Of a DNA stretch of 64,000 nt, positions 3,576 to 17,641 are shown piece by piece. The number at the start of each line of letters is the position of its first letter. The first letter of the stretch is position 1. The stretch is from positions 124,001 to 188,000 of the forward strand of contig CACMZR010000001.1 in assembly GCA_902618245.1 (NCBI GenBank), written 5' to 3'. The notes under the pieces are model-generated. The model had not been told where the DNA came from. It did no database searches and was given only the letters and a program-made list of their open reading frames with translations. A program made the position numbers and the translations under genes. The DNA comes from an uncultured Bacteroidota bacterium (GTDB lineage: Bacteria > Bacteroidota > Bacteroidia > Flavobacteriales > Flavobacteriaceae).

Positions 3576-3590
3576 ACACTTGGTAATCAA

Positions 3591-5476: not shown

Positions 5477-6061
5477 TTATTTGGACAGCATGAAAGGAAA
5501 ACTAACAGATACTTTTTCCCAGCTTAATGAAATAATACCTTCTTTGTCATTGAGTTTTTCAACTTGATAAATCAGTTGCTCAGTTATTTCTTCAGAGATT
5601 TCAGGAGTTACATCGATTCTTAACACATCATCATTTTCGTTATAATCATCTTTACCGTGTTGGTTCCAATTCTTATTAAAAATTATAGTCCACTTATCTT
5701 TATTTGGTATAGTAAAAAACCCATATTTTCCCGCTTTTAAAAGATTTTCATTTATAATGATATCCTTGTTAGTTTCTATCCAAGTAGCATTATGTGCCCC
5801 AGATTGCCAAATCTCACCATAAGCCAATAATCCTCCATAAATAATTCTTCCTTTCACAGAAGGCGCCGAATAATCAATATGGATATGAGCATCAGCTATC
5901 ATTGCCATAGCATATTTATGTGGACTTTGCGTTTTTTTAGAATTTGAAGTAGTTTCTTCCATTTTATGGTTTTGATGCTGATCACCAGATTGATTTTGTT
6001 TATTGTTCTTACAAGCAAAAAATAGTAGACTTAAAAAAGCCAGGTAGAATATATTATTCAT
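5477..6061 (-). CDS. DUF2911 family lipoprotein
   Basis: A 194-residue lipoprotein with lipobox FFAC near residue 17, then a Gln/His/Ser-rich linker. The DUF2911 domain follows from about residue 45, with the family signature VKGRIIYGGL, YGEIWQSGAHNATW, LKAGKYGFFTIP and WTIIFNKNWNQHG. DUF2911 proteins are common envelope proteins in Bacteroidota with no established biochemical role. The spacing of Trp and Gly motifs matches the family well. Confidence 0.8.
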   Translation of the reverse strand: MNNIFYLAFLSLLFFACKNNKQNQSGDQHQNHKMEETTSNSKKTQSPHKYAMAMIADAHIHIDYSAPSVKGRIIYGGLLAYGEIWQSGAHNATWIETNKDIIINENLLKAGKYGFFTIPNKDKWTIIFNKNWNQHGKDDYNENDDVLRIDVTPEISEEITEQLIYQVEKLNDKEGIISLSWEKVSVSFPFMLSK

Positions 6062-6280
6062 TTTATATTTTTTTCAAACCTAAAATTTAATTTATTAAAG
6101 TAGCTAAAGTCATTATTATATTTAGTTGTGCTGAAACTTTGAATAATAGTAGGAGCAAGTTTAGCACCTACACTTCACTGACAAATATAAGCACTAACAA
6201 AAAATGAAGCCTTTTTCTCACAATTAAGTTTAAGAATTTATGTTTATTAATTGGTTCAATTTATGCATAAATCGCTGGTA

Positions 6281-6344
6281 TATCCTTTCATTTAGTTCAG
6301 GAGTAATTTGTATATTAACTTTATTTAATAATAAATTAACCATT
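6281..6344 (+). promoter_or_regulatory. integrase-tail/promoter module, copy B
   Basis: The minus strand at 6301 to 6281 reads PELNERI, a shortened version of the integrase tail. The plus strand continues with AATTTGTATATTA (TTTG at 6307-6310) and a leader ending just before the ATG at 6345. The DUF4242 gene starts after it. Confidence 0.6.
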
Positions 6345-6629
6345 ATGAACAAGTATCTAATCAAAAGAGAAATTGAAGGAGCTTCGCAAATACCAAGTGA
6401 AAAACTTGATGAAATAGGACAAGGATCTGAATCGGTATTAATCGCTATGAGAAATGAAGGAAAACAAATAGAACAAGACCATAGCTATATCGCTGGTAAT
6501 AATGTTTTTTGTGTTTATCACTCAGAATCTGAGGATTTGATAAAAGAACATTCTGAACGTGCTGGTGTTCCTGCCAATGAAATTACCTTAATATCAGGTA
6601 TACTAGAGCATAATACCAATGGTGATTAA
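6345..6629 (+). CDS. DUF4242 family protein
   Basis: A 94-residue cytosolic protein beginning MNKYLIKREIEGASQIPSE. It matches the DUF4242 (SCO4226-like) pattern of a small ferredoxin-like alpha/beta fold, with HSYIAGNNVFCVYHS in the middle and EHSERAGVPANEI toward the end. Members of the family bind metal or a small ligand, with SCO4226 described as nickel-binding. The ATG at 6345 is preferred over an in-frame start at 6240, because the leader module ends there and the family N-terminus starts there. It begins the cassette-like array. Confidence 0.8.
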   Translation: MNKYLIKREIEGASQIPSEKLDEIGQGSESVLIAMRNEGKQIEQDHSYIAGNNVFCVYHSESEDLIKEHSERAGVPANEITLISGILEHNTNGD

Positions 6630-6631
6630 GT

Positions 6632-6699
6632 CATTGGTATATCCTCTTCATAAACTTAAAGGACATCCTCAAACTGCATTATTATTGTAAATCTAGGTA
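6632..6699 (+). promoter_or_regulatory. integrase-tail/promoter module, copy C (degenerate)
   Basis: It starts 2 bp after the DUF4242 stop codon. The minus strand at 6649 to 6632 reads EEDIPM in the frame of the integrase tail, with a stop upstream. The TTTGTATATTG block is altered here, so promoter strength is uncertain. Confidence 0.5.
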
Positions 6700-7338
6700 G
6701 TGCAAGTTATTAGTCTTAAAGATTTCAAAAACGAGGAGTTTTGGAATGTTTTAACACATTTTTTAGGCTTTGTTTTATCTGTCATTGGGATACCTTTTTT
6801 ATTCTATTTTGATAATGAAATTACACCCTTAAGTTCGCTTTCACTTATTTTATTCTCTATTGGTTTATTGCTTGTATATTCATCATCATCTATTTACCAT
6901 TTTATTCTAAACCCTAAGCTTAAAAAGAGATTTCAGGTATTTGACCATATAAGTATATATTATCTCATTTTGGGTTCATATGCGCCTGTATGCTTAGTAA
7001 CTCTTTATAAACACTCGGGTACAAATATTTTTATCGCTGTATTAATTTTAACATTGGTGGGAACCTTAAAAAAACTGTTCTTGACAGGGAAATATCAATT
7101 TATGTCTCTCTTGTTATATTTAGTTATGGGATGGCTTATAATTTTTGACATAAATTCTCTTTTTAAATTGATTGATTTTAATGCTAAATTATTACTAATC
7201 TTAGGTGGAATTTCTTACACCTGCGGGGTTATATTTTATGTTTTAGGGAAGTTTAAATATTTCCATTCAATATGGCATCTATTTGTGTTAATTGGTTCTG
7301 GTTTTCATTACTTTATGATATTATTTTATGTAATCTAA
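6700..7338 (+). CDS. hemolysin III / PAQR-family membrane protein
   Basis: A 212-residue protein with about seven transmembrane helices. The hemolysin III/PAQR hallmarks are visible: S-S-S-I-Y-H in the second helix region, a conserved Asp in FDHISIYYLILGSY, and H-S-I-W-H in the last helix. In this superfamily these residues form a metal-dependent hydrolase-like site. The name hemolysin III is historical, and a toxin role is not implied. It starts with GTG at 6700 after module copy C and ends directly before copy D. Confidence 0.85.
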   Translation: MQVISLKDFKNEEFWNVLTHFLGFVLSVIGIPFLFYFDNEITPLSSLSLILFSIGLLLVYSSSSIYHFILNPKLKKRFQVFDHISIYYLILGSYAPVCLVTLYKHSGTNIFIAVLILTLVGTLKKLFLTGKYQFMSLLLYLVMGWLIIFDINSLFKLIDFNAKLLLILGGISYTCGVIFYVLGKFKYFHSIWHLFVLIGSGFHYFMILFYVI

Positions 7339-7341
7339 ATT

Positions 7342-7414
7342 ATTGATATATCTTCATCACTAAGATTAGGGACTAATTTGTATATTGATTATTATTAACT
7401 ATAAATCAATTAAA
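7342..7414 (+). promoter_or_regulatory. integrase-tail/promoter module, copy D
   Basis: The minus strand reads PNLSDEDIS in the integrase-tail register at about 7369 to 7342. The plus strand then has GACTAATTTGTATATTG (TTTG at 7377) and the leader TTAACTATAAATCAATTAAA right up to the ATG at 7415. The leader is identical in copies D and G and almost identical in H. Confidence 0.7.
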
Positions 7415-7894
7415 ATGAAAAATCTATTTACATTACTATTACTATTAACACTAACTTTTTCATTCTCTCAAGGCATTACCGGTAAAACAACAACTGATGA
7501 CAAATACTCAAAAGCGATCAAAGCTTACATGAATGAATATTTACAAAATAAATTTGATACATATGAAGAAATACACGCTGAAGATGCTGTTTTCGATTTA
7601 AATGGAATTGAAGCAAATAAGTCAACTGTTAAAAAAGGATGGAGTTCTCATCATAAAATCTACAGTAATATCAAATTAGAATGGATGTTTGTTGAAACTA
7701 CAGTGTATGATGAAAACAATAATAATATGGTGTGGTCTCACATATGGGGTGGTTGGTCTGCTAAAGGCAATAAGACAAAAAAAAATTGGAGTAATCCATT
7801 TAACGCATCATTTAAGTGGGTTGATGGAAAAATTGTAATGGAGAATTGGATTTTTGACCCTACATCAGATATTACAGAAGCTGCTGCTAAATAA
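7415..7894 (+). CDS. secreted SnoaL/NTF2-like protein (paralogue of 13337-13822)
   Basis: A 159-residue exported protein with signal peptide MKNLFTLLLLLTLTFSFSQ. The mature NTF2-like domain carries a YMNEYLQNKFDTYEEIHAED helix, then FVETTVYDENNNN and VWSHIWGGW, and ends DGKIVMENWIFDPT. These blocks recur almost unchanged in the protein at 13337, so the two are close paralogues. The ATG at 7415 is preferred over 7385, because it gives a standard signal peptide and follows the conserved leader. A perfect ACCCTCC/GGAGGGT terminator follows. The ligand and function are unknown. Confidence 0.75.
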   Translation: MKNLFTLLLLLTLTFSFSQGITGKTTTDDKYSKAIKAYMNEYLQNKFDTYEEIHAEDAVFDLNGIEANKSTVKKGWSSHHKIYSNIKLEWMFVETTVYDENNNNMVWSHIWGGWSAKGNKTKKNWSNPFNASFKWVDGKIVMENWIFDPTSDITEAAAK

Positions 7895-7916
7895 CGATTT
7901 ACTATTAAGATATAAT

Positions 7917-7940
7917 ACCCTCCCTAGTGGAGGGTTTTTT
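7917..7940 (+). terminator. rho-independent terminator (shared ACCCTCC type)
   Basis: CCCTCC (7918-7923), a 5-base loop and GGAGGG (7929-7934) are followed by six T residues. The same stem is reused after the genes ending at 11255 and 17521, and with small changes after 13822 and 16636. Confidence 0.85.
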
Positions 7941-7946
7941 CATTGT

Positions 7947-8009
7947 CATATCTTCTTGATTAAGTTTAATGACTAATTTGCGATTTCTTATTTATTAATA
8001 ATCAATCAA
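7947..8009 (+). promoter_or_regulatory. integrase-tail/promoter module, copy E
   Basis: The minus strand reads IKLNQEDM at about 7970 to 7947. The plus strand has GACTAATTTGCGATTTC, a variant of the usual TTTGTATATTG, then TAATAATCAATCAA directly before the ATG at 8010. Confidence 0.6.
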
Positions 8010-8930
8010 ATGAAAAATATTTTAGAAACGGTCGGTAATACACCAATTGTAAAACTTGAGAAAATTATTCCATCAGGTTGTGGCGAAGTTTATGTAAAAC
8101 TAGAGGCAAATAATCCAACAGGATCAAAAAAAGATAGAATGGCCCTTTCTATGATTGAAGGAGCAGAAAAAAGAGGTGATTTAAAAGAAGGAATGTCTGT
8201 TGTTGAGTACTCTGGAGGTAGTACTGGAGCTGGATTAGCTTTTGTTTGTGCGATTAAAGGATACCGTTTCAGGTTAATTACTGCAGATGTTTTTGGCAAA
8301 GAAAAAATTGGCTTAATGAGAGCGTTGGGAGCTGATCTTGAAGTTATTAAAAGTGAAGATGGAAAAATCACTAAAGAACTTATTGGAAAGATGATTGAGA
8401 GAGCTGAAGAAATTTCTGTTGAACCGGATACATTTTTTACTGATCAACTTAATAATATGGACGTTATTGAAGGTTTTGTTCCTCTTGGAAATGAGATACT
8501 CCAACAACTTGACGGAAAAGTAGATGCTGTTTGTGACACCATTGGAACAGCGGGAACATTAATGGGAATAGCAAAATCATTCAAAGATAATGGGGCTCAT
8601 TCTAAAATCATTGCCCTTGAACCTGCTAGTTCTCCAATATTATCAAAAGGAATTAAAGGTGCACATAATGTTGAAGGGGTTGGCCTTGGCTTTATTCCGG
8701 CTATTTATAATTCTGAATATGTTGATGATGTTATTTCAATTGAAGAATCCTTAGCAAGACAAACTTGTAAGGAACTGGCTTCGAAGGAAGGAATATTTTG
8801 TGGTACTTCAAGTGGTATGAATGTAGCAGGTGCAATAAAATTATCTAAGAGCTTAGGACCAAAATCAAAAGTGGTCGCTGTAGCTTGTGATACAGGGCTT
8901 AAATATCTTTCTGAAGGACTTTTTTATTAA
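8010..8930 (+). CDS. cysteine-synthase-like PLP-dependent enzyme
   Basis: A 306-residue fold-type II PLP enzyme of the cysteine synthase / cystathionine beta-synthase group. The PLP lysine is K41 in NPTGSKKDRMA. The phosphate-binding Gly/Thr loop is seen as GTAGTLMG and the C-terminal PLP-ring contact as GTSSGMN. The substrate-binding loop, normally T-S-G-N-T-G in O-acetylserine sulfhydrylases, reads YSGGSTG (residues 67-73), so the substrate may not be O-acetylserine. It is a single gene in the array, downstream of module E and not next to other sulfur genes. A beta-replacement role on an unusual amino acid is possible. Confidence 0.85.
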   Translation: MKNILETVGNTPIVKLEKIIPSGCGEVYVKLEANNPTGSKKDRMALSMIEGAEKRGDLKEGMSVVEYSGGSTGAGLAFVCAIKGYRFRLITADVFGKEKIGLMRALGADLEVIKSEDGKITKELIGKMIERAEEISVEPDTFFTDQLNNMDVIEGFVPLGNEILQQLDGKVDAVCDTIGTAGTLMGIAKSFKDNGAHSKIIALEPASSPILSKGIKGAHNVEGVGLGFIPAIYNSEYVDDVISIEESLARQTCKELASKEGIFCGTSSGMNVAGAIKLSKSLGPKSKVVAVACDTGLKYLSEGLFY

Positions 8931-9037
8931 TTTAAAAACAGTGTTTTTTATATATCACCCTAGGATTTGAATTTTACAGATATTATGAATTCCAACTGAC
9001 TTAAATATCACTTTCCAAATTGTATTTTATAAATCAT

Positions 9038-9108
9038 CAGTATTACCTCTTCATAAAGTTCAGATTCAAATTTGTATATTTAAAACTGTTAATCATAAAT
9101 CGATTAAA
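9038..9108 (+). promoter_or_regulatory. integrase-tail/promoter module, copy F
   Basis: The minus strand reads SELYEEVIL at about 9064 to 9038. The plus strand has AAATTTGTATATT (TTTG at 9071-9074) and the leader CATAAATCGATTAAA directly before the ATG at 9109. Confidence 0.6.
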
Positions 9109-9642
9109 ATGAATAAAACAATAATACTCTTATCCTTAATTTTAGCATTTAGTTGCAAAAACCCTACGAATAATGATGTAAAGGCGAGCACCTCTTTACA
9201 GCTAGAAAAAGACCTCGAAATGTATCAAAATGTTTGGAATTCATTTTTGGCAGGTGACACTAGTGTAGTAAATAATAAAAACTTTACAGAAGATGTAGTA
9301 ATTGTAACATCTGATGGAGATCTTGTTGGAATAGATGCCTGTAAAGAATTCTATACAAATTATTTAACAGGATTTACTGATATACAATGGACGATTGTTG
9401 ATGCATTTGGGCAAGGGAACAAGCTTGTAAAACATTGGAATTTTAAGGGTAAACATACTGGAGATTTCTTCGGGATACCCGCTACAGGTAATTCATTAAA
9501 TCTATCTGGTACAACAATAGTTACGATGCGTGACGGAAGAATCGCTAAAGAGCACGATTTTTTTGATATGAAGTCAATGCTGGATCAGCTATTAAATTCA
9601 GAAGGAGATCTTACGTTAGACGAATATCAACCTATCAATTAA
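9109..9642 (+). CDS. SnoaL-like lipoprotein (ester-cyclase type)
   Basis: A 177-residue lipoprotein with lipobox LAFSC at about residue 16. The mature part shows the SnoaL ester-cyclase pattern: a YQNVWNSFLAGD helix, GIDACKEFYTNYL, then the strands KLVKHWNFKGKHTGDFFGIPATG and MRDGRIAKEHDFFDM. These correspond to the W-x-x-x-G-x-H-x-G-x-F-x-G-I-x-P-T-G motif of SnoaL-like proteins. No catalytic role is proven. Its stop overlaps the end of the convergent gene at 9635 by 8 bp, without a separate terminator. Confidence 0.75.
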   Translation: MNKTIILLSLILAFSCKNPTNNDVKASTSLQLEKDLEMYQNVWNSFLAGDTSVVNNKNFTEDVVIVTSDGDLVGIDACKEFYTNYLTGFTDIQWTIVDAFGQGNKLVKHWNFKGKHTGDFFGIPATGNSLNLSGTTIVTMRDGRIAKEHDFFDMKSMLDQLLNSEGDLTLDEYQPIN

Positions 9643-10345
9643 TTTGAAGGATGTCACTTAGCTCATATTGAAGCTCTTCTAGAGTTAATATATAAAACTT
9701 TAAGGAAGAAATTCTAGTTTTAAAATACTTAAGCTGGACAATAAGATTTGATTTAAGCTTTTCATTTTCTTGTATAAACTCATGCAAAGATTTCAAATAA
9801 TTTTCAAAACTTATTTTTGAATTGTTCCCTTTTAGAAAAAGTTTTGGGTTCTCCTGAGTTATCAAATCAATTATAAGTTCTATTATTTTTTTTTCATAAT
9901 CTACTGTGGAAACAACTTTACTAAAATTTAAATTATGTAAACGTGTAAGCGCTTCTTTAATATTTTCTGATTGTACATATTTTAAATCACCTGTATTAAC
10001 CAAGGATCTATATCTATTCATTGGAGGATCAAAATCTCTGTAATAAATTAAGTTATACTCAATCCTATTTTTACTAATAGCTATATTTTTTAATATTTCA
10101 ATATTCAGTTTTTCGTTTAATAAAAGGTTATATATCTCTATGTCTTGGTTCCATATTTTTATTCTTTCGTCACAATAATTTTTTATATCATTAGATTCAA
10201 TCAAAATACTTTTTAAGACTCTTTCTCTTTGGATTGATTTATCTCTTTCAACGGATATTTCACTAATCCAAAAGGAGGCTGAGATACCAATAATAATTGC
10301 TATAATCTCAAGACCAAGTTTTAAAAAAAATTTTCTTTTGAACAT
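9635..10345 (-). CDS. membrane-anchored coiled-coil protein (DUF6090-like)
   Basis: A 236-residue protein with one N-terminal hydrophobic segment (LGLEIIAIIIGISASFWISE, about residues 9-28), followed by a long helical, coiled-coil-prone region. The layout (short basic start, one helix, FW-x-S/NE, then EK-rich helices) is that of DUF6090-type proteins. Similar genes lie at 13953 and 24308. The ATG at 10345 is chosen over 10408, because it places the basic residues directly before the membrane segment. It is one of very few minus-strand genes in the array and lies opposite module G. Confidence 0.6.
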   Translation of the reverse strand: MFKRKFFLKLGLEIIAIIIGISASFWISEISVERDKSIQRERVLKSILIESNDIKNYCDERIKIWNQDIEIYNLLLNEKLNIEILKNIAISKNRIEYNLIYYRDFDPPMNRYRSLVNTGDLKYVQSENIKEALTRLHNLNFSKVVSTVDYEKKIIELIIDLITQENPKLFLKGNNSKISFENYLKSLHEFIQENEKLKSNLIVQLKYFKTRISSLKFYILTLEELQYELSDILQIN

Positions 10346-10404
10346 TTTTGTTCTTTTTAAGGCAATATAACTATTTAATATTAGGATGTTTAAACATAAT
10401 AAAC

Positions 10405-10463
10405 TCATATTAAATTCAGCGCATCTTTGTATATTGTTAATTATTAACTATAAATCAATTAAA
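10405..10463 (+). promoter_or_regulatory. promoter/leader module, copy G (tail lost)
   Basis: CTTTGTATATTG (TTTG at 10426-10429) and the leader TTAACTATAAATCAATTAAA run straight into the ATG at 10464. The leader is identical to copy D. The integrase-tail part is not recognisable here. Confidence 0.6.
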
Positions 10464-11255
10464 ATGAATAAAACAGCGTATACAATTTTTTTAATTTTAA
10501 GTTCTTTAGTAATAAGTGCTCAGGATTGGTCTTCTGTCTACAGACAAGTTGATGAGATAACATTAAATGACGGTCTTGAAAAAGACTACGAAGAATTTGA
10601 ATCCTTTTGGAAAACATTAAAGCAAAAGCACCTTGAGGAAGGTAAAATTTTAGGATGGTTTGTTTGGAAAGCAGATCAAACAAGCAATAACAATAATCCT
10701 TGGACTGATTATATTATTCTTAATGTTTATGAAAATGAGCAAAAGATGAAAGAAATGAATTCTAAAACACAAGAATGGTGGATAAATGAATTAAAAACTG
10801 CACATAAAGGAAAGACAAAAAGATCTGTTATTAAAAAATATATTTCAGAAACAGTCAATAATAAATATAAAAAGAAAGTAGTCTCATATACTAATAAGGG
10901 AATTGAAGCTTATTTATCAGAGAAAGCTGCTCCACAAACTGGAATTGTAGCTAATTATATTGGCGTAGAAGAACTAAACGAAGATTATGTAGATTTTGAA
11001 ACAAAATTATTCCTTCCGTATCATAAATCTGGAAATACGAGACTTTACTGGGAATTAAATGAAATAGTAGATAGAACAGAAAATGCATACAAACCCGTAA
11101 GCCATATAATTTTTGAAATTAGAAATCCTGAAAATAATAATGTTGAATCAAATTTATCGTTTGCAGAGGAAATGGCAATTAAATATGGAATTGCCAGTAG
11201 AAAGTTTCATGGTAATCTTGAAGCACAACTTGTTCATTTTGCTTTTGGTAATTAA
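10464..11255 (+). CDS. secreted alpha+beta (dimeric-barrel-like) protein
   Basis: A 263-residue exported protein with signal peptide MNKTAYTIFLILSSLVISAQ. The mature part appears to contain two related halves of about 115 residues. The first has GLEKDYEEFESFWKTLKQKH, GKILGWFVWKAD and WTDYIILNVYEN, a pattern seen also in the proteins at 15863 and 16751. It resembles the ferredoxin-like alpha+beta barrel (NIPSNAP/ABM/DUF1330) layout, but I cannot name the family. The ATG at 10464 is preferred over 10386, because it follows the conserved leader and starts the signal peptide. An ACCCTCC terminator follows. Confidence 0.65.
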   Translation: MNKTAYTIFLILSSLVISAQDWSSVYRQVDEITLNDGLEKDYEEFESFWKTLKQKHLEEGKILGWFVWKADQTSNNNNPWTDYIILNVYENEQKMKEMNSKTQEWWINELKTAHKGKTKRSVIKKYISETVNNKYKKKVVSYTNKGIEAYLSEKAAPQTGIVANYIGVEELNEDYVDFETKLFLPYHKSGNTRLYWELNEIVDRTENAYKPVSHIIFEIRNPENNNVESNLSFAEEMAIKYGIASRKFHGNLEAQLVHFAFGN

Positions 11256-11261
11256 ATTCTA

Positions 11262-11289
11262 AACCCTCCCAAGTGGAGGGTTTTTATTT
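11262..11289 (+). terminator. rho-independent terminator (shared ACCCTCC type)
   Basis: AACCCTCC and GGAGGGTT pair around a short loop and are followed by a T run. The stem is the same as at 7917-7940. Confidence 0.85.
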
Positions 11290-11295
11290 GACCGC

Positions 11296-11363
11296 TATAT
11301 CCTCTTCATTAATTTTAGGGACTAATTTGTATATTGCTTCTTATTAACTATAAATCAATTTAA
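11296..11363 (+). promoter_or_regulatory. integrase-tail/promoter module, copy H
   Basis: The minus strand at 11319 to 11296 reads PKINEEDI, clearly the integrase tail. The plus strand has GACTAATTTGTATATTG (TTTG at 11326) and the leader ATAAATCAATTTAA directly before the ATG at 11364. Confidence 0.7.
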
Positions 11364-12053
11364 ATGAAAAACGTTTTTATATTATTTAGTATTCTAATTA
11401 GTTCATTAACATTTTCACAAAATGTTTTCTGGTACGACGTTATGTTAGAAGTAGATGGGAAAAATGCTTCAACAGTAGCTAGTCTTGTTGATGATTTCTA
11501 TTCAAATCACAAAAAGTCTTCTGATGTAACAGTTGAATTTTCTTCTATTCCTTTAAAAGGGCCTAGTGAAAAAGCTACGCACATTATAAGTATTGCAAGT
11601 AATTCCTCTCAGTCTCTTGCTGATTTTAGAAATTCACTCAAAGGAGAAAATTGGGACTTATACATCTCTAAAATGAGTAATTATGTAAAAAGCAGTAGAG
11701 CCTCTGCGGGGAAAAGTCTAATTACAAATGGTTCGGAAACTAATTATCCTATTGGACAAGCTTGGGTTTTTAAGGCAACTAACCCAAAATTACCATCAAT
11801 GGTTGAGGCTTTTGGCAAACTAATAAAATCATATAATTTTGATGGATTTGTTGGTATGGGCCAAATAGTTCATGGTACAGAAAACGGTGAGAGTGTTTAT
11901 ATTTATGGAACTTACTCCAACTTAAATGATGCATTTAATTTTGGGCCACAAAGCAAAAAAGAAAGTGTGGCCTTTGCAGAATTTGCAGAAGTATTTGACG
12001 CTGCAGCACAATATTCAAAATCATTTACTCGAGTTCTTATAAAAAGCTACTAG
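11364..12053 (+). CDS. secreted hypothetical protein of the array
   Basis: A 229-residue exported protein with signal peptide MKNVFILFSILISSLTFSQ. The mature part looks like two alpha+beta halves: an early VFWYDVMLEVDGKN strand-helix unit, and a second half with QAWVFKATNP and SVYIYGTYSNLNDAF. This is reminiscent of the tandem alpha+beta barrels encoded at 10464 and 16751, but more diverged and rich in Ser. No family is recognised. A long 12-bp-stem terminator follows. Confidence 0.6.
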   Translation: MKNVFILFSILISSLTFSQNVFWYDVMLEVDGKNASTVASLVDDFYSNHKKSSDVTVEFSSIPLKGPSEKATHIISIASNSSQSLADFRNSLKGENWDLYISKMSNYVKSSRASAGKSLITNGSETNYPIGQAWVFKATNPKLPSMVEAFGKLIKSYNFDGFVGMGQIVHGTENGESVYIYGTYSNLNDAFNFGPQSKKESVAFAEFAEVFDAAAQYSKSFTRVLIKSY

Positions 12054-12062
12054 ATTTTATTC

Positions 12063-12092
12063 AAAATCCCCTAGCACCCTCTAGGGGATTTT
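12063..12092. terminator. terminator hairpin with 12-bp perfect stem
   Basis: AAAATCCCCTAG (12063-12074) pairs perfectly with CTAGGGGATTTT (12081-12092) around a 6-base loop, with T-rich sequence after it. It differs from the ACCCTCC stem used elsewhere in the array. Confidence 0.8.
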
Positions 12093-12233
12093 ATATTCTC
12101 TAAAGTAATCCAAAAGTCAGAAGTTGTAATCACTCTAATTACTTAATAAAGACTTCTTGATTTTTTTCTTCAAAAAAATGGACATTTGTATAATATGTAT
12201 ATTAGTTGTTGATGAGTCTATAAATACTTTTCA

Positions 12234-13256
12234 ATGAAACGAAGAAAATTTATACAGGGATCAACAACTATAGCATCAGGACTTGGGTTTTCAGCTATTT
12301 CACTTCATCAATTAGAATCAACTAAAACTAAACAATCCATAGAGACATATGTAACATTGGATCAGGAAAAAGTTTCTTTTTATAGTGATGTCATTAAAGA
12401 AAAAATAAAAATAATTCATATTGCAGATACACATCTTTATATGGATGACGAAAGAGGAACCCCCTTTTTAAAATTCAGTGGTCGAATGGCTAAAGCTTAT
12501 AATCAAACAAAGCATTTCAAAACAGGAGAAAAAACAAATCCTAAAAAAGCCTTTAAGCAAGCAATAACTTTTGCTAAAGAATCTAATGCAGATGTTATCA
12601 CTTTGGTAGGTGATATATTTAGTTTTCCATCTGAACTTGCAATAGAATGGGTTTTATCTGAAATAGAAGCGATTGGGATTCCATATATTTACATAGCGGG
12701 AAATCATGATTGGCATTACGAAGGAATGGATGGTAGTCTTGATTCACTTCGTGATAAATGGATAGAAAAAAGATTAATTCGTTTATACCAAGGGAATAAC
12801 CCCTTAATGGCAGCATACGATATAAAAGGAATTAGGTTTTTAGCCATTGATAATTCAACATATGAAATAAATGATAAACAATTGAATTTTTTTTCAAAGC
12901 ATGTTGAATCTGGTATGCCTATTGTTTTGTTGATTCATATACCAATGTACGCTCCTGGGAAAAATATTTCGTTTGGATGTGGAAACCCTTTTTGGGGAGC
13001 TGAAACTGACCGTAATTTTGAATTAGAAAGACGTCCCAAATGGCCAGAAAATGGTCATACTAAAACAACGTTTGAATTTTATAAAAAGGTTTTTGATTCA
13101 TCTAATGTGATTGGAATTTTTGCTGGTCATATACACCGAAACTCTATTGAAATTATTAAAGGAAAACCTCAAATAGTTTCAGATGATAATGCGAGCGGGG
13201 CATATCTAGAAATTGATTTTATTCCAATGGAAGAAAAGTATAAAGTTAAAAGTTAA
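12234..13256 (+). CDS. Tat-exported calcineurin-like metallophosphatase
   Basis: A 340-residue protein with a twin-arginine signal (MKRRKFIQGSTTIASGLGFS), predicted to be exported folded. The metallophosphatase motifs are all present in order: IADTHLY (D-x-H), VGDIFSF (G-D), GNHDWH, LLIHIP (H) and GHIHRNS. They would coordinate two metal ions and hydrolyse phosphoester or phosphonucleotide substrates in the periplasm. The substrate is unknown. It stands alone in the array and its upstream region lacks the usual tail/leader module, so it may have entered separately. Confidence 0.85.
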   Translation: MKRRKFIQGSTTIASGLGFSAISLHQLESTKTKQSIETYVTLDQEKVSFYSDVIKEKIKIIHIADTHLYMDDERGTPFLKFSGRMAKAYNQTKHFKTGEKTNPKKAFKQAITFAKESNADVITLVGDIFSFPSELAIEWVLSEIEAIGIPYIYIAGNHDWHYEGMDGSLDSLRDKWIEKRLIRLYQGNNPLMAAYDIKGIRFLAIDNSTYEINDKQLNFFSKHVESGMPIVLLIHIPMYAPGKNISFGCGNPFWGAETDRNFELERRPKWPENGHTKTTFEFYKKVFDSSNVIGIFAGHIHRNSIEIIKGKPQIVSDDNASGAYLEIDFIPMEEKYKVKS

Positions 13257-13265
13257 AAAACTAGA

Positions 13266-13336
13266 CATTCCTCTTAATTTTAAATTATATGAGACTTATT
13301 CGTATATTACTTATTATTAATCATAAACCAATTAAA
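13266..13336 (+). promoter_or_regulatory. promoter/leader module, copy I (degenerate tail)
   Basis: TTCGTATATTA (13299-13309) and the leader AATCATAAACCAATTAAA lead directly into the ATG at 13337. CTCTTAATTTTAA upstream is probably the decayed integrase tail. Confidence 0.5.
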
Positions 13337-13822
13337 ATGAAAAATTTATTTATAATCTTATTTATTGCTAGTTCTTTTTACTCTTTAGCTCAAGAAATAA
13401 CTGGAACAGTAAGAACATCTGATAAGTATTCTAATGCAATTAAAAAAATGAATAGTGAATATTTTAAAAATGATTTTACAACATTTAAAAAGATTTTTAG
13501 TGATGATGCAACCTTTAGTGTTAATGGAGAAGAATTTTCAAAAAGTCAAATAATTGAAGGTTTTTCAATGCACCATAAATTTTATTCAAATATTAAGATG
13601 CAGTATAGTTTTGTTGAAACAACTTTTTATGATGAAAATAATAATAATCAAGTATGGAGTCACAATTGGGGACTTTGGGATGGGGTTTCAAAAAGAACTA
13701 AAAAAAATGTACCCAACCCTGTGAATGTTTCATTTAAATGGGTTGATGGGAAAATTGTCAATGCTTCCTGGATATATGATCCAACACAATTGAATGAAGA
13801 AATAATGGCATCTAAAAAATAA
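13337..13822 (+). CDS. secreted SnoaL/NTF2-like protein (paralogue of 7415-7894)
   Basis: A 161-residue exported protein with signal peptide MKNLFIILFIASSFYSLAQ. It shares with the protein at 7415 the order of all blocks: DKYS-x-AIK, MHHKFYSNIK, FVETTFYDENNNN, VWSHNWG, FKWVDGKIV and W-I-x-DPT. This indicates duplication within the array. A signal peptide, NTF2-like core and Asn/Trp-rich strands are visible, but no catalytic motif. The ATG at 13337 follows the shared leader and is preferred over 13289. Confidence 0.75.
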   Translation: MKNLFIILFIASSFYSLAQEITGTVRTSDKYSNAIKKMNSEYFKNDFTTFKKIFSDDATFSVNGEEFSKSQIIEGFSMHHKFYSNIKMQYSFVETTFYDENNNNQVWSHNWGLWDGVSKRTKKNVPNPVNVSFKWVDGKIVNASWIYDPTQLNEEIMASKK

Positions 13823-13851
13823 AATATAATTTAATATTTAATACATTAAAG

Positions 13852-13877
13852 GACCCTTCAAATATGGAGGGTCTTTT
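13852..13877 (+). terminator. rho-independent terminator (variant of the shared type)
   Basis: GACCCTTC pairs with GGAGGGTC around an AAATAT loop, followed by TTTTATTT. It has one mismatch compared with the stem at 7917 and 11262. Confidence 0.7.
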
Positions 13878-13890
13878 ATTTACCTGTAAA

Positions 13891-13952
13891 TGCTTTATTT
13901 TAAATTTAGGGACTGATTCGTATATTCACTCAGCTAAATAATAATTGATTAA
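13891..13952 (+). promoter_or_regulatory. promoter/leader module, copy J (degenerate tail)
   Basis: TTTAGGGACTGATTCGTATATT is a clear relative of the promoter block (TTCG at 13917-13920). The leader is AATAATTGATTA before the ATG at 13953. The integrase-tail part has lost its reading frame. Confidence 0.5.
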
Positions 13953-14678
13953 ATGAAAAAAATAGTTAATAGATTTTGGGAGTTTTTAATGTTATTTATT
14001 GCTATTTCACTTGGTTTTTTTGTTGAGAATTATAGGGAAGTATTAGTTGATAGACAAAAAGAAAAAGAAATAATAGCATCATTTATTAATGACCTTGAAA
14101 CCGATATTAAAGAGTTAGACATTGTAATTCAACGAAGAGAAACAAGAGAAGTAAGGATAGATTCAATTATATATATTTTAAATAATGGTTTGCAAGACAA
14201 TTATGGAAAAGATCTTTACTATTATGCGAGATACTTGCCACGCCCTGCCGTTTTTTGGGCAAACAATACAACAAATGAAGAGTTAAAATATTCTGGAAAT
14301 TTTATTTTAATAAAAAACCAAAAAATAATTGATACTCTCTTACAATATAATGACAATTTTATTTTCATTGATTTCATAAAAGAAAGGGAGGAATATTTAG
14401 TAAGGAGACTATTCGATCAAATAAATGTGATGTTTGATCCCATGGTTTTCGATGAGATGAATGTTTATGATATAGAATTTGTTTATCCCTCTGGAAATCC
14501 AAAAATAAATACCAAAAATAAGGATGTGATTAACCTTTTTTTGAGCAATTTACACTATGTAAAAACAGTAAATGTAGGACAGCTAGGGCTTTTCAAAAGA
14601 CATCAAAAAAAAGCAAAAGAAATTTTAAACTTTATAAAGGAAGAATATCCTGATGTGGCAGCTGAAAAACACAAATAA
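13953..14678 (+). CDS. membrane-anchored coiled-coil protein (DUF6090-like)
   Basis: A 241-residue protein starting MKKIVNRFWEFLMLFIAIS, with a single N-terminal membrane segment followed by GFFVENYRE, and then long charged helices starting DRQKEKEIIASFINDLETDI. This is the second DUF6090-type protein in the window, with the same architecture as those at 9635 and 24308. The helix is likely in the inner membrane with the coiled coil on one side. No enzymatic motif is seen. Confidence 0.65.
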   Translation: MKKIVNRFWEFLMLFIAISLGFFVENYREVLVDRQKEKEIIASFINDLETDIKELDIVIQRRETREVRIDSIIYILNNGLQDNYGKDLYYYARYLPRPAVFWANNTTNEELKYSGNFILIKNQKIIDTLLQYNDNFIFIDFIKEREEYLVRRLFDQINVMFDPMVFDEMNVYDIEFVYPSGNPKINTKNKDVINLFLSNLHYVKTVNVGQLGLFKRHQKKAKEILNFIKEEYPDVAAEKHK

Positions 14679-14682
14679 CTAT

Positions 14683-15003
14683 CTAACTACCCTCGAAAAT
14701 AGAAAGATTTCTTACAACAGTTTCTTCGGGATTATCGCCAAGTTCATTTAAGGCTTCTTGATATTCTTTGCTATTATGACAATTTATAGCGTCTTGTAAA
14801 CTATTAAACTCTACAACTGCTGCAAACATTAAATCTGAACCCTGAATTTTACCTTTAGGCTGACCTGTGAGCACAGGTAAATAGTTTCCAGTTTGTTCAT
14901 TTTTATGTTTTTCTTCAATTTGAAAGTATTTTGTTAAGTAGTTATTCCATCTTTCTTCATTTTTAATTTCAATTACATTTCCTATCCAATATCCTTTTTT
15001 CAT
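14683..15003 (-). CDS. DUF1330 domain protein
   Basis: A 106-residue cytosolic protein from ATG at 15003 (MKKGYWIGNVIEIKNEERW). DUF1330 is visible as the YWIGNV start, the middle AAVVEFNSLQDAINCHNSKEYQEAL helix region and a short C-terminal strand. The fold is a dimeric ferredoxin-like alpha+beta barrel. An alternative ATG at 15027 adds eight polar residues. It converges on the DUF6090-like gene with 4 bp between stops. The family has no agreed function. Confidence 0.75.
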   Translation of the reverse strand: MKKGYWIGNVIEIKNEERWNNYLTKYFQIEEKHKNEQTGNYLPVLTGQPKGKIQGSDLMFAAVVEFNSLQDAINCHNSKEYQEALNELGDNPEETVVRNLSIFEGS

Positions 15004-15183
15004 TTTATTATGATTTGATTTATTCATCTAATATATAGAATGATTTTATTTAAAATAATTTCTTGTATCATCAAATTATATTAATTATTCAGATATAAAT
15101 ATTATAAAGCATTTAAGTTTATTTAAGTGCTCCTGCTATCGTTTCATTAAAAATTAATAATTTTATTTATATAAATATTTGAT

Positions 15184-15273
15184 ATGTGTAATTGTGATTG
15201 TTCCCCTTGTAAAGAATTAGATTGTTCAGCATGTATTTGCGAACCCTGTATTTGTTCTCCTTGTGATTGTTAG
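15184..15273 (+). CDS. 29-residue cysteine-rich mini-protein
   Basis: ATG at 15184 opens a 29-codon frame ending in TAG at 15271-15273. Eleven of 29 residues are Cys (positions 2, 4, 6, 9, 14, 17, 19, 22, 24, 27, 29), arranged as C-x-C and C-x-x-C with the repeated unit (S/E)-P-C and the ends CNCDC and CSPCDC. Asp, Ser and Pro fill the gaps. There is no signal peptide. The pattern suggests a metallothionein-like metal binder or the core of a modified peptide. No modification or metal-transport gene is adjacent. The flanking region has AT-rich promoter-like sequence. It could be a chance ORF, but the regular cysteine spacing argues against that. Confidence 0.55.
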   Translation: MCNCDCSPCKELDCSACICEPCICSPCDC

Positions 15274-15297
15274 TTCAACAATAAAAATTCTTGTATT

Positions 15298-15549
15298 TCA
15301 TTTCTTTTTTAATTTTTTGTGTTCAATTATTTCTGGAACCCCTCCCTCGAGATCATCTATCAGAATATGTGGAGTTTGTTTTCGTATCCATTGATAAATC
15401 ACACCCCTTATAAATTCAGTTTGAGTGGGATATTTACCGAATTTGTCTTTTGCCTCGTTTGAAACGATCGCCTGTCTTATATAGTCCACGAATTGCGTTG
15501 AAGCATTAAACTTAATTTGATTACTATATTGAATTTTGGTTTTTGGCAT
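15298..15549 (-). CDS. small basic hypothetical protein, possibly DNA-binding
   Basis: An 83-residue basic protein from ATG at 15549 (MPKTKIQYSNQIKFNAS). It has a short N-terminal strand-like segment, two amphipathic helices (TQFVDYIRQAIVSNE and QTEFIRGVIYQWIRKQ) and a Lys-rich tail, which loosely resembles ribbon-helix-helix proteins. No family is recognised. It is convergent with the cysteine-rich mini-ORF, with 24 bp between stops. Confidence 0.5.
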   Translation of the reverse strand: MPKTKIQYSNQIKFNASTQFVDYIRQAIVSNEAKDKFGKYPTQTEFIRGVIYQWIRKQTPHILIDDLEGGVPEIIEHKKLKKK

Positions 15550-15790
15550 CAGAATAACTTTTTGTCAATAAAATTTTAATAGGTACCTTTCAAAAGTACT
15601 AATATTATTGAAAAAAAAATATATAAAGTCTTTTTGATGTTTTTTGTACCCAAAAACTCCTCTAGTTTATTATTTAAAAAGTAAAATTGTTATTTTTTCC
15701 ATATTTATTAATAAAAAATCCAAATTTTTAGCTATTTTATGAGATTTTTAGAGGAAAAATGCAATTTTTTACCAATTTTTTAACTTATTT
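15550..15790. other. AT-rich intergenic region, no gene seen
   Basis: About 240 bp of very AT-rich DNA with several poly-A/T runs and no convincing ORF on either strand. It serves as upstream sequence for the small minus-strand gene at 15549 and leads into module K on the plus strand. No RNA gene or clear hairpin is seen. Confidence 0.5.
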
Positions 15791-15862
15791 CATTAATTTC
15801 TGCTTCATTTAGTTTTAAAAAACATATTTGTATCTTAAAGTTTTAATCATAAATCAATTAAT
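15791..15862 (+). promoter_or_regulatory. integrase-tail/promoter module, copy K
   Basis: The minus strand reads KLNEAEIN at about 15815 to 15791, a drifted integrase tail. The plus strand continues with ATATTTGTATCTT and the leader ATCATAAATCAATTAAT directly before the ATG at 15863. Confidence 0.6.
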
Positions 15863-16636
15863 ATGAAAAATTTAATTTTTGTAGTTATACTCTTAACATC
15901 AATATTTATTCATGCTCAAACAACAGTAATGATTGCTGTTGTGCTTGAAGACGGTAAAGAAAATGAATATCTCCAGTATGAAAAAAACTGGAATAAAGTT
16001 GCTGACCAAATGGTAAAAGATAATTTGATTGCTCAATGGTCAGTATGGAAAAGAACTCCTAGAGATGGAGACGAAAATTGGGCACAATATTATGTTTTTA
16101 GAAGAACAACAAAGGAGCAGGACGAGAATCTTGATACAAATGCTTGGAAAAAGTCAACTAAATCTGCATTTAAGGGTAAAAGTCAAAAGACAATAGATAA
16201 ATTACTGTCCTCAAGCGGAATAGTCAAAGAAAACAGAAGCAGAACCTACAAATGGGTATCTGGTACTGGATGGAGAGGATTAGAATGGGAAATAGGTGAT
16301 AAGGGCTATTTTCATTTTATGAAACAAAATAATGATGATTTTGAAGATTATGAAAGATCAGTTTGGAAACCTATAGCTCAGCAACAAATTCTTGACGGTT
16401 ACAGAAAATTTTGGGGTCTTGCCAAAATCATATCAAAAAATGATAACACAAAAAAATTAGAGTCAGGTTTCACCCACATTGCATTTAATTTTATGACAAA
16501 AAAGGAAATGCCACAGGGCACAGAGTACAATATAATAGAGGACGAATTTTTAAGGAAAAAGGCTTTTGAGGGACTTCAAGCATCAAGAGAAATGCTACCT
16601 TCTGAAGAACTCACTTTAGTATATTCAACTTTTTAA
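15863..16636 (+). CDS. secreted alpha+beta (dimeric-barrel-like) protein
   Basis: A 257-residue exported protein with signal peptide MKNLIFVVILLTSIFIHAQ. It has two halves. The first shows strand TTVMIAVVLEDGKENEYLQYE, IAQWSVWKRTPRDGDENW and AQYYVFRR, and resembles the first half of the protein at 10464. The second half contains GYFHFMKQNNDDFEDYERS and GFTHIAFNFMT. The pattern is that of tandem ferredoxin-like barrels. Ligand and role are unknown. It is followed by a terminator and then a third related gene. Confidence 0.65.
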   Translation: MKNLIFVVILLTSIFIHAQTTVMIAVVLEDGKENEYLQYEKNWNKVADQMVKDNLIAQWSVWKRTPRDGDENWAQYYVFRRTTKEQDENLDTNAWKKSTKSAFKGKSQKTIDKLLSSSGIVKENRSRTYKWVSGTGWRGLEWEIGDKGYFHFMKQNNDDFEDYERSVWKPIAQQQILDGYRKFWGLAKIISKNDNTKKLESGFTHIAFNFMTKKEMPQGTEYNIIEDEFLRKKAFEGLQASREMLPSEELTLVYSTF

Positions 16637-16648
16637 TGACAAAAATTG

Positions 16649-16673
16649 ACCTTCCAAAACTGGAGGGTTTTTA
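16649..16673 (+). terminator. rho-independent terminator (variant of the shared type)
   Basis: ACCTTCC and GGAGGGT pair (one G-T) around AAAACT, followed by a T run. It is closely related to the stems at 7917, 11262 and 17546. Confidence 0.75.
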
Positions 16674-16690
16674 AATATTAGGAAATCTTT

Positions 16691-16750
16691 ATTTATCAAT
16701 TTCATGCACTTCTTTGTATATTGCTGTTTATTAACCATAAATTAATTTAA
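16691..16750 (+). promoter_or_regulatory. promoter/leader module, copy L (tail lost)
   Basis: TCTTTGTATATTG (TTTG at 16713-16716) and the leader TTAACCATAAATTAATTTAA lead directly into the ATG at 16751. Confidence 0.55.
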
Positions 16751-17521
16751 ATGAAAATATTTAATAAACTTATATTAACTTTTCTGTTAATGCTTGCTGT
16801 AAATATTTCAGCACAAGGGGTGTTTTATCTTCATGGAGTTAGTGTTCCTTACAAATTTCAAGAAAATTTTGAAAGCAATGAAAAAGAATATTTTTCTAAA
16901 CTGGCTCAAGATTATGTCAATTCTGGTAAAATGCAAGGCTGGGCTTTACTAAAAAGAGTTCCAGGCATTGGTCATGCACAAGATTATAATTATAACTATT
17001 TCTGGGTTCATGGATTTGAAAGTATTGATCAAATGGTTTCAGCACAAGCGGATCCATTTTGGAATAAATTTGAAAGTAAATTTAAAAACAAGCCAAGCGA
17101 ATTATTAAAAGAATCACAATCTAAAAAAAGTGGCATCTATTATTTTAAAACGTACGATCAGTTTAGTACAGGCCAAGGTAAATATGTAATACTAAATGAT
17201 GGAAAGGTAAAGGATATACAAATGGCTTTAGATATGGGAAAACAAACTGGTAAAATTTTTAAAAAGAATTCGAAAAAATCTGGAATGAAAGGATGGGGAG
17301 TTGCAACAATCATTGCACCTCAGGATAAACATAACACAAGTAATGTATTTTATTGGGATATATATGACACATTAGCAAATGCAATGAAACATATGGCAGG
17401 TGAAGCCGCTGTATTAGACATACCTGATGAAATGGCAGCTAAATTTTATAAAAATCTTCCAGATGGTTTCTCACACAGGAATATAACAGAAATTATTATC
17501 GGCACTACTCCTAAAGAGTAA
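16751..17521 (+). CDS. secreted alpha+beta (dimeric-barrel-like) protein
   Basis: A 256-residue exported protein with signal peptide MKIFNKLILTFLLMLAVNISAQ. The mature part has a first unit with GVFYLHGVSVPYKFQENFES, KMQGWALLKRV and NYFWVHGFES, and a second with GKYVILNDGKVKD, GWGVATIIAPQD and VFYWDIYDTL. Both halves carry the strand-helix-W-strand layout seen at 10464 and 15863. This makes three to four paralogues in the array. A clean ACCCTCC terminator follows. The family is not recognised. Confidence 0.65.
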   Translation: MKIFNKLILTFLLMLAVNISAQGVFYLHGVSVPYKFQENFESNEKEYFSKLAQDYVNSGKMQGWALLKRVPGIGHAQDYNYNYFWVHGFESIDQMVSAQADPFWNKFESKFKNKPSELLKESQSKKSGIYYFKTYDQFSTGQGKYVILNDGKVKDIQMALDMGKQTGKIFKKNSKKSGMKGWGVATIIAPQDKHNTSNVFYWDIYDTLANAMKHMAGEAAVLDIPDEMAAKFYKNLPDGFSHRNITEIIIGTTPKE

Positions 17522-17545
17522 TTTTAGATAAAATTTTGTAAAAAG

Positions 17546-17569
17546 ACCCTCCGAAATGGAGGGTTTTTT
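17546..17569 (+). terminator. rho-independent terminator (shared ACCCTCC type)
   Basis: ACCCTCC and GGAGGGT pair around a 5-base loop, followed by TTTTT. It is the same stem as at 7917 and 11262. Confidence 0.85.
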
Positions 17570-17581
17570 ATATGATATACT

Positions 17582-17641
17582 TCTTTACATTTATAGCATC
17601 AAATACTTATTTGTATATTGTAAAAATGTAATCTAATCATT
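17582..17641 (+). promoter_or_regulatory. promoter/leader module, copy M (degenerate tail)
   Basis: TTATTTGTATATTG (TTTG at 17610-17613) and a short leader ending in ATCATT lead directly into the ATG at 17642. The integrase-tail part is only faintly visible. This is the last copy before the arrangement changes. Confidence 0.5.

Follow-up and report, generated by a model that had tools for sequence, protein, structure and literature searches.

Tandem gene units bordered by copies of an integrase gene 3′ end: probable integron-like cassette arrays in Flavobacteriales

The window, i.e. the whole stretch of 64,000 nucleotides analyzed here, contains a gene for a tyrosine recombinase (integrase) close to its left end and, to the right of it, a row of small gene units, here termed cassettes, all encoded on the plus strand. 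The features of this region are listed below; core scores are identities to a 36-nt core taken from the integrase gene of another genome (G034, family f8).

1630–1665, plus strand: core site (34/36), first cassette beside the integrase
1666–1712, plus strand: promoter-like box with leader, which ends at the gene 1710 start codon
1710–1922, plus strand: cassette gene, 70 aa, no Pfam match
1925–2482, plus strand: second gene of the 1710 cassette (185 aa), with a stop that overlaps the end of the integrase gene
2477–2512, minus strand: 36-nt site, last 11 codons and stop of the integrase gene, 30/36 identical to the G034 core
2477–3535, minus strand: tyrosine recombinase (integrase), 352 aa, Phage_integrase domain (PF00589, E 9.6e-12)
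3536–3590, no strand assigned: CTGTC/GACAG repeats upstream of the integrase start, putative arm-binding sites (by-eye inspection)
3591–3658, plus strand: tRNA-Asn fragment (positions 8–75, 100% over 68 nt), right end of the integrase island
6267–6302, plus strand: core site, 21/36 ungapped (indel)
6345–6629, plus strand: cassette gene, SCO4226-like (PF14026)
6626–6661, plus strand: core site (29/36), gives the preceding gene its stop codon; no promoter box behind it
6700–7338, plus strand: cassette gene, HlyIII-related membrane protein (PF03006)
7335–7370, plus strand: core site (26/36), gives the preceding gene its stop codon
7415–7894, plus strand: cassette gene, 159 aa, paralogue of 13337
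7935–7970, plus strand: core site (26/36), preceded by a terminator-like hairpin
8010–8930, plus strand: cassette gene, PALP enzyme (PF00291)
9029–9064, plus strand: core site (29/36)
9109–9642, plus strand: cassette gene, SnoaL-like (PF07366)
10422–10466, plus strand: promoter-like box and leader; core 16/36, not above chance
10464–11255, plus strand: cassette gene, 263 aa, same protein group as 15863 and 16751
11284–11319, plus strand: core site (28/36), preceded by a terminator-like hairpin
11364–12053, plus strand: cassette gene, 229 aa
13292–13339, plus strand: promoter-like box and leader; core 17/36, not above chance
13337–13822, plus strand: cassette gene, 161 aa, paralogue of 7415
13875–13910, plus strand: core site, borderline (22/36)
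13953–14678, plus strand: cassette gene, 241 aa
15821–15865, plus strand: promoter-like box and leader; core 18/36, not above chance
15863–16636, plus strand: cassette gene, 257 aa, same protein group as 10464 and 16751
16671–16706, plus strand: core site, borderline (22/36)
16751–17521, plus strand: cassette gene, 256 aa, same protein group as 10464 and 15863
17599–17644, plus strand: promoter-like box and leader; core 17/36, not above chance
17642–18730, plus strand: last cassette gene, SMP-30/gluconolactonase-like (PF08450)

The sequence-only reading of this DNA had described at least eleven genes placed behind a similar block, with a leader that ends at the start codon. Both statements were borne out: eleven blocks, all on the plus strand and alignable as far as the start codon of the following gene, lie in or at the edge of positions 6281–17641 (at 6272, 7340, 7940, 9034, 10389, 11289, 13262, 13878, 15788, 16676 and 17567), and a twelfth in the same orientation, at 1637, precedes gene 1710. 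Where it is clear, the left part of the block is a 36-nt copy (26–35/36) of the last 11 codons and stop codon of the integrase family; TTTGTATATTG is the putative promoter sequence of the block.

Pattern counts in the 64-kb window were compared with those in 100 dinucleotide shuffles. An 18-mer of the integrase tail (up to 3 mismatches) gave 5 matches including the integrase itself (expected 0.15) and ATTTGTATATTG (up to 1 mismatch) gave 9, 8 of them in blocks (expected 1.8), numbers that none of the shuffles reached. The leader ATAAATCAATTAAAATG (up to 3 mismatches) was matched 10 times, 8 times in blocks (expected 3.7), and since 2 of the 100 shuffles also reached 10, the leader alone is weak evidence.

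When 37 places of the same genome were scored against the G034 core, 21 reached at least 26/36, the best of 3000 random 120-mers being 22. In or at the edge of the array the core is clear at five places (6626, 7335, 7935, 9029 and 11284; 26–29/36), borderline at three (6267, with an indel, 13875 and 16671; 21–22/36) and at chance level at four (10389, 13262, 15788 and 17567; 16–18/36). The earlier count of integrase tails in six or seven blocks was thus a fair one, with five certain and three borderline copies; 4 of the 12 window blocks have no clear core, and the copy at 6626 is a core without the promoter block. A set of 36 cassette proteins from this genome fell into 20 groups, of which the two largest have 9 and 5 members, so that the proposal of unrelated families is partly right, some of the genes being paralogues. 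The cassette genes here are often unnamed and secreted-looking.

The residues R212, K240, R303, H326 and Y335 of the integrase, the presumed catalytic residues of this family, are invariant among 17 homologues and, together with the domain, identify it as a tyrosine recombinase. Its AlphaFold model (pLDDT 86) has lambda Int as top fold match, and the integron recombinase structure 2a3v ranks tenth, behind lambda and Tn1549 Int chains. The gene stands at one end of a 15.3-kb island, between the tRNA-Asn fragment at 3591–3658 and the matching intact tRNA-Asn (C1:112297–112371), as in integrative elements of tRNA genes. Integrase islands bounded by an intact and a partial tRNA also occur at four loci of relatives (L106, L108, L112 and L116), an exception being L111, in which a complete tRNA-Asn lies on the 5′ side of the integrase. 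Carriage by a phage or plasmid was rejected: the integrase had no match among the phages and plasmids searched, and the viral contigs yielded no confirmed integrase match and no exact core.

A profile of the block (E≤1e-3) found 38 matches in the genome, comprising the 12 used to build it and 26 others on contigs C2 (20), C8 (4), C6 (1) and C12 (1). A genome-wide promoter motif was rejected, because these matches fall in clusters, six in all; 12 further matches, with E between 1e-3 and 1, include some outside the clusters. The core profile gave 23 matches at E≤1e-3, and the 15 not used to build it are all on C2, C8 or C6.

The best row (C2:177774–191757) consists of 18 modules with genes, 15 of them at E≤1e-3, and forms a tandem of mostly one-gene cassettes in one direction, with module spacings (16 of the 18 modules used) of 413–1375 bp and one of 2130 bp across an omitted weak module. 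Four clusters have clear cores; those on C1 and C2 have a tRNA gene alongside, and for those on C6 and C8 there is none on the expected side within about 25 kb. The module proposed from the window is therefore shared by rows elsewhere in the genome, but no core of at least 26/36 accompanies the blocks at C2:158–177 kb, C2:262–270 kb and on C12, which makes a cassette reading slightly weaker and a repeat or regulon slightly stronger.

The tails had been matched to the end of the window integrase. This end is indeed 30/36 identical to the G034 core, but 20 of the 21 clear array cores are nearer to the G034 integrase end. Across 28 array sites the information content climbs where the integrase stop codon lies and is close to zero toward the gene; the sites were picked by the 36 nt, so only the flanks are informative. 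Eight of the 28 give the preceding gene its stop codon.

In relatives, too, small gene units are set apart by integrase tails, in many cases next to a tRNA gene. All 36 lone single integrase segments in 37 such loci correspond to the last 45 aa; this count is biased by ten loci (L154–L162 and L164) obtained through a tail search, and 15 of the 36 tails come from loci brought in by whole-integrase searches. One further place (L124, 9394–9630) has two inner segments alone. Of the partial matches listed when 395 genomes were searched with the whole integrase, N-terminal pieces are located at contig ends, and each of the four internal matches is a tail. The tails are hence better described as a retained short site than, as first supposed, as decayed integrase C-termini, since no other single segment recurs alone.

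The expectation that intact integrase genes end in the same sequence held: the core forms the end of the integrase gene in all three aligned clades, the f7 and f11 integrases among them, and the G034 integrase gene (cut by the contig start) shares 36 consecutive identical nucleotides with the module at C2:182708. Under strict filters, the block profile was found in 2 of 296 genomes, this one and one of another family; in f7 and f11 genomes tails recur without it. The repeated tails of f7 measure about 45 to 125 nt and mostly exceed a minimal crossover site.

In relatives, 11 loci combine a lone tail with a called tRNA, and in all of them the tail points toward the tRNA. The gene direction in the rows of relatives is more mixed than in the C2 row. 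A tRNA beside every row is not a general rule, considering the two of four clear-core clusters in the window genome and nine further loci of relatives with a lone tail and no called tRNA, most of them short contigs. Each tRNA was searched against its own locus and no piece of it was found between units: the long partial copies are those at the integrase end, and two short ones measure 17 nt in L106, outside the island, and 14 nt in L171, beside the blocks at C2:264 kb. This does not agree with an additive tRNA island having tRNA-end repeats between its units. Resemblance of the tail to a tRNA D-arm was not evident by eye among this genome's array copies. Inverted repeats within the core, likewise judged by eye, are weak.

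The content of these loci changes between related genomes, as had been anticipated. At a tRNA-Ala locus (with the same tRNA in G145), G198 and G378 have syntenic flanks on both sides (83–92%) and partly different units; at a tRNA-Met locus of G378, G198 and G298 the tRNA-side flank is syntenic (81–88%) and the units differ. The same unit also occurs at different loci: one adjoins the integrase in G145 and lies in an integrase-less row in G378 (89%), and another is present at two tRNA loci of G378 (86%). The homology of units shared by G145 and G378, and between the G378 loci, stops in the tails or within 20 nt of them.

Sharing extends to another family. G034 and contig C2 have a common unit (90.6% in nucleotides, 91% in protein) that ends at the site, and the 3′ end of the PALP gene (8010–8930) recurs in G034 with a core site behind it, as a 97-nt stretch of 87.6% identity. 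The two are 1.5 kb apart in G034 and belong to two different arrays in the window genome. In ten hand-picked pairs, the joints between leader and gene often lie exactly at the start codon, and leader and gene do not always move together, which site-by-site exchange alone does not predict.

We consider it likely that these rows are mobile cassette arrays that work like integrons, with an integrase and a site unrelated to those of integrons. The recombination site of the tRNA-inserting tyrosine recombinase would be the final 36 nt of the gene that encodes it, and a cassette would usually be a single gene equipped with a promoter-like box and leader of its own, in many cases also with a terminator, and would close with a copy of the site. 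Exchange is probably catalyzed by this integrase; cassettes may travel in circular form and be inserted at the site that follows the integrase gene, and integrase-less rows, such as the window array and that on C2, may have been left after integrase loss. The proposal of a cassette system at an integrase 3′ end is in this sense supported, most tests being favourable, but the window array lies outside the 15.3-kb integrase island.

Counting against the cassette explanation are the core-less blocks, the C6 and C8 clusters without a tRNA on the expected side, the nine loci of relatives that have a lone tail and no called tRNA, the tRNA position in L111, the long f7 tails and the fact that the window integrase is not the best match to the window array cores. 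The leader–gene junctions at start codons are outside what the site alone accounts for, and part of the shuffling could proceed by homologous recombination on the repeats.

Other readings account for parts of these data. The integrase 3′ end might be a target at which other elements pile up in tandem, as SCC elements do, their units being moved by another recombinase; most units do lack an integrase, and duplicated gene 3′ ends are reminiscent of the gene-end accretion of PAISt. Yet the units are mostly single genes, as the C2 spacings illustrate, no recombinase inside the units or second one common to the loci was noticed in passing, and no serine recombinase appeared among the Pfam matches (E≤0.001) of 40 proteins (20 from the window, 18 from C2 and 2 from G034), so we regard this as unlikely. 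Rather improbable is a dispersed promoter-bearing repeat, or a co-regulated promoter of a locally duplicated gene family, shuffled by homologous recombination in the absence of a site-specific system. Paralogous genes, joints at start codons, and some modules and three clusters reduced to the promoter-leader part without a clear core would fit it, but the module is common to 20 protein groups, the core is the integrase 3′ end in the three aligned clades and G034, tails recur in f7 and f11 without the block, and units ending at the site are common to different families.

That the tails are remnants of many integrases, decayed after repeated island insertion at tRNA genes, is very improbable: such islands do insert at these tRNA genes and one place in L124 does have inner segments alone, but for the bulk of the copies the idea is contradicted by the 36 lone segments, all from the integrase end, and by the partial matches listed from 395 genomes. 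An ordinary integron, its IntI being divergent and its sites attC, would share the tyrosine recombinase, the one-gene cassettes in one orientation and the integrase-less rows elsewhere in the genome. We give it almost no credence, considering the 17.1 bits obtained with the integron-integrase model TIGR02249 (cutoff 265), the z values of −1.45 to +1.09 for 12 single-strand folds of six sites, which show no attC-like folding, and the location of the site at the 3′ end of the integrase gene.

The proposed cassette arrays resemble several known systems. Integrons (IntI/attI/attC, including CALIN) share with them (i) a tyrosine recombinase, (ii) tandem one-gene cassettes, (iii) exchange between arrays, (iv) an own promoter in some cassettes and (v) rows without an integrase (CALIN); in contrast, the recombinase described here is not IntI by model and lies in a tRNA island, the site is a copy of the integrase 3′ end instead of a folded attC, and one promoter-like block is common to most cassettes of the genome. 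Additive flexible genomic islands at tRNA genes (Methylophilaceae, Alteromonas) also have a variable cassette number and short direct repeats, but the Methylophilaceae repeat is the last 20 bp of tRNA-Lys, whereas the repeat described here is the end of the integrase gene, and most units consist of a single gene.

SCC elements accrete at the 3′ end of their target gene. SCC and PAISt at bacA likewise have a site at a gene 3′ end and module-wise excision; here, the recombinase gene is itself the target, and none of the units was seen to contain a recombinase. Tycheposons are tyrosine recombinase islands at tRNA genes of aquatic bacteria as well, but they are described as large cargo elements, and the accessible part of their description contains no integrase-tail repeats. 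An earlier description of an integrase-tail cassette system was not found in the open-access literature searched, which includes few subscription papers and no bioRxiv preprints.

Among bacterial gene-capture platforms, the integron is the standard example. With somewhat better than even confidence, we see in these arrays an integron counterpart of independent origin, in which a lambda-type, tRNA-inserting integrase would use its own 3′ end as both receiving and cassette site, each insertion rewriting the last integrase codons; complete expression units would pass between families of small-genome Flavobacteriales, and new open reading frames could be set behind an existing promoter and leader through a second joint, which lies at the start codon. 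If this is true, a second platform with a different recombinase and kind of site would mean that the design arose more than once.

The integrase tail offers a simple marker for locating cassettes in small-genome bacteria, and it opens two questions to testing: how promoters come to be part of cassettes, and how one gene end can serve both coding and recombination. In small-genome relatives of Flavobacteria, single genes appear to be gathered into rows, many of them next to tRNA genes. Each row is held together by copies of a short site that doubles as the end of a recombinase gene, in what looks like a separately evolved counterpart of the integron.

Twelve plus-strand genes in the window were found directly behind a similar block of approx. 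80 bp. One block occupies positions 1637-1712; the other eleven lie within or at the edge of the interval 6281-17641, which confirms the eleven genes behind a shared block noticed there by the sequence-only reading and adds a further one. The block consists of up to three parts: (i) a core which, read on the minus strand, resembles the end of the integrase gene, (ii) a box, TTTGTATATTG, and (iii) a leader running to the start codon. In shuffling controls, the core gave 5 matches in the window versus 0.15 expected and the box 9 versus 1.8; the leader (10 versus 3.7, a count reached by 2 of 100 shuffles) is more weakly supported. The integrase is located as follows:

2477-3535, minus strand: tyrosine recombinase gene, 352 aa (PF00589)
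C1:112297 (on the contig of the window) to window 3658: integrase island of the source genome, 15.3 kb

The array therefore lies just outside the island, which also holds a PD-(D/E)XK nuclease (850-1581, minus strand) with a Cas4-like match.

A profile built from the 12 blocks gave 38 matches (E<=1e-3) in the 1.83-Mb source genome, a draft 85.8% complete. Of these, 26 were outside the building set: 15 in C2:177-191 kb, 4 on C8, 3 in C2:168-176 kb, 2 in C2:264-267 kb and one each on C6 and C12. This confinement to a few stretches rules out that the block is a general promoter of the genome. Of the 23 matches of the core-only profile (E<=1e-3), 15 were outside its own building set, all in C2:177-191 kb, C8 and C6. 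The clearest row, C2:177-191 kb, contains 18 modules (3 of them above E 1e-3), each preceding a gene of the same direction, and many of these genes stop at or near the next module. The spacings range from 413 to 1375 bp, plus one of 2130 bp spanning a weak module excluded from the count. Adjoining the C8 modules are about six tandem proteins of approx. 195 aa, similar by eye (locus L072, 8703-12437, minus strand), with one more of this type between the modules (6051-6629).

The cores were scored against the last 11 codons plus stop (36 nt) of the integrase of G034, a genome from another family of the order; the gene is truncated where its contig begins, and identity at the protein level is 73.7% over 175 aa. 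Module C2:182708 is identical to this integrase gene over 36 consecutive nt. A score of at least 26 was reached by 21 of 37 source-genome places; among 3000 random 120-mers drawn from outside the arrays, the highest score was 22. For 20 of the 21 clear array cores, the closer match was the end of the G034 integrase, not that of the window integrase. In the interval 6281-17641, the proposed integrase-tail part was certain for 5 cores and borderline for 3, and 4 were at chance level. In C2:158-177 kb, C2:262-270 kb and C12, no block had a core of at least 26; these blocks thus represent the putative promoter-leader part only. Minus-strand blocks of this type without a clear core were seen in C2:163135-175550, across a tRNA-Ala gene from the C2 row.

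With the whole-integrase search (E<=1e-20), 395 genomes sampled from the order were covered, and 21, the source genome among them, carry a homologue; they belong to families f1 (the source genome only), f7, f8, f11 and f15. In a Cryomorphaceae MAG (79% identity), the last 15-60 integrase codons repeat between small gene units, and they do so too in G198, G356, G378, G121, G100, G145, G248, G298 and other genomes, mostly drafts. When ten integrases were cut into 45-aa segments and run against 37 loci (528 kb), single segments stood alone in 36 places, and in all 36 this was the last segment (10 of the loci had been retrieved by searching with tails, and the figure should therefore not be read as a prevalence). 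At L124 (9394-9630), only segments 1 and 2 were present. Several tail copies contain stops or frameshifts, and are therefore kept as DNA, not as protein. At 28 array sites of the source genome and G034, conservation sets in with the stop codon of the integrase, and the gene side shows none; the site itself provides the stop codon of the preceding gene at 8 of them, and a terminator-like hairpin precedes several others. These comparisons argue strongly that the core is a site, and the earlier reading of the tails as decayed integrase was abandoned for the bulk of the copies. At L179 of G034 (5426-9492), the array end adjoins genes resembling those of integrative elements, including, by eye, another long protein that looks like a recombinase.

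A tRNA or tRNA piece, of differing tRNAs, lies just upstream of 16 of 17 integrases by eye (only 24 nt precede the 17th, L121); at L111 this tRNA is complete. In the source genome, L106, L108, L112 and L116, the island is flanked by an intact tRNA at one end and a partial copy of it at the other. Eleven lone-tail loci of relatives have a called tRNA, which the tails face in every case; 9 further lone-tail loci have no called tRNA. In the source genome, the C1 array faces tRNA-Asn and the C2:177-191 kb row tRNA-Ala; no tRNA was found on the expected side of C6 and C8 in the stretches fetched.

Gene content at the same locus was indeed seen to vary between related genomes. At the tRNA-Ala locus, both flanks are syntenic between G198 and G378, at 83-92% next to the tRNA and 86% on the far flank; they enclose 6.1 and 5.0 kb, respectively, of partly shared, partly different units. 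The G145 contig, ending just past this tRNA, contains an integrase and one unit (L093, 683-1724), 89% identical to a unit in the integrase-less G378 row. One G378 unit occurs twice (86%), once beside the tRNA-Met integrase and once in the row at tRNA-Ala; at either end, the homology stops inside a tail or no more than 20 nt from it. At tRNA-Met, G378, G198 and G298 have a common tRNA-side flank (81-88%) and different units. Across families, a G034 unit shares 90.6% nt identity with source C2:179607-180794, and 1.5 kb from it lie 97 nt that match the end of the window array's PALP gene (87.6%); in the source genome the two are in separate arrays with neighbours different from those in G034.

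The joint between leader and gene was compared in ten pairs picked by hand. In five, the frame was related and the leader at shuffled level; in one the reverse was observed, and in four both were kept or partly kept.

Matches in compared pairs (downstream, frame; upstream, leader)
L093/L154: downstream 288/300 nt; upstream 36/77
Source C2/G034: downstream 270/300; upstream 41/60
L116:12203/L154:7354: downstream 218/300; upstream 40/76
L116:12203/L118: downstream 159/293 (the first 50 nt are related); upstream 39/77 (shuffled maximum 38)
L092/L154:6858: downstream 208/298; upstream 31/80
L116/L092: frame unrelated; leader common, 76/79
L154/L156: frame 235/300; leader 75/80; both kept
L116:12981/L154:8714: frame 261/300; leader 58/79; intermediate

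Pairs such as L154/L156 indicate that leaders are not simply fast-evolving. Since tail-to-tail exchange would bring the leader along, a second process is needed; our simplest guess is recombination at the short common sequence around ATGAAA, after which in-frame joints would be retained by selection. The cassettes of one genus (L118, L154, L116, L156) repeat a secreted-looking family beginning MKLLTTIAAVLIS, in which the mature part is often less well conserved than signal peptide and leader.

The 36 cassette proteins of the source genome form 20 groups. A signal-peptide-like start (crude hydrophobicity rule) was present in 32 of 36, versus 43 of 121 other proteins. Pfam families include SnoaL-like, PALP, SMP-30, HlyIII, cyclase, DUF3237 and serine hydrolase (PF00144), and many cassette proteins have no Pfam name. 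A 29-aa frame with 11 cysteines inside the array (15184-15273, plus strand; MCNCDCSPCKELDCSACICEPCICSPCDC), below the ORF-list size, is metallothionein-like by eye.

The first elements in the predicted structure of the window integrase (pLDDT 86, pTM 0.52) are three strands and a helix, as in the arm-binding domains of lambda-type integrases. Its best fold matches were lambda Int and Tn1549 Int, with an integron recombinase also among the matches; matches to Xer models were weak (best 47 bits, cutoff 220). It differs from integron integrases in falling far below their model cutoff (17.1 bits against 265), and the tail sites differ from integron sites in that none of 6 folded on both strands gave an attC-like hairpin. 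For these reasons, the system probably functions in the manner of an integron but is not itself one. Searches of an open-access literature library brought up no such system. Cassette arrays made by site-specific recombination, the wider kind to which it would belong, are already known; the recombinase and site described here differ from every kind compared.
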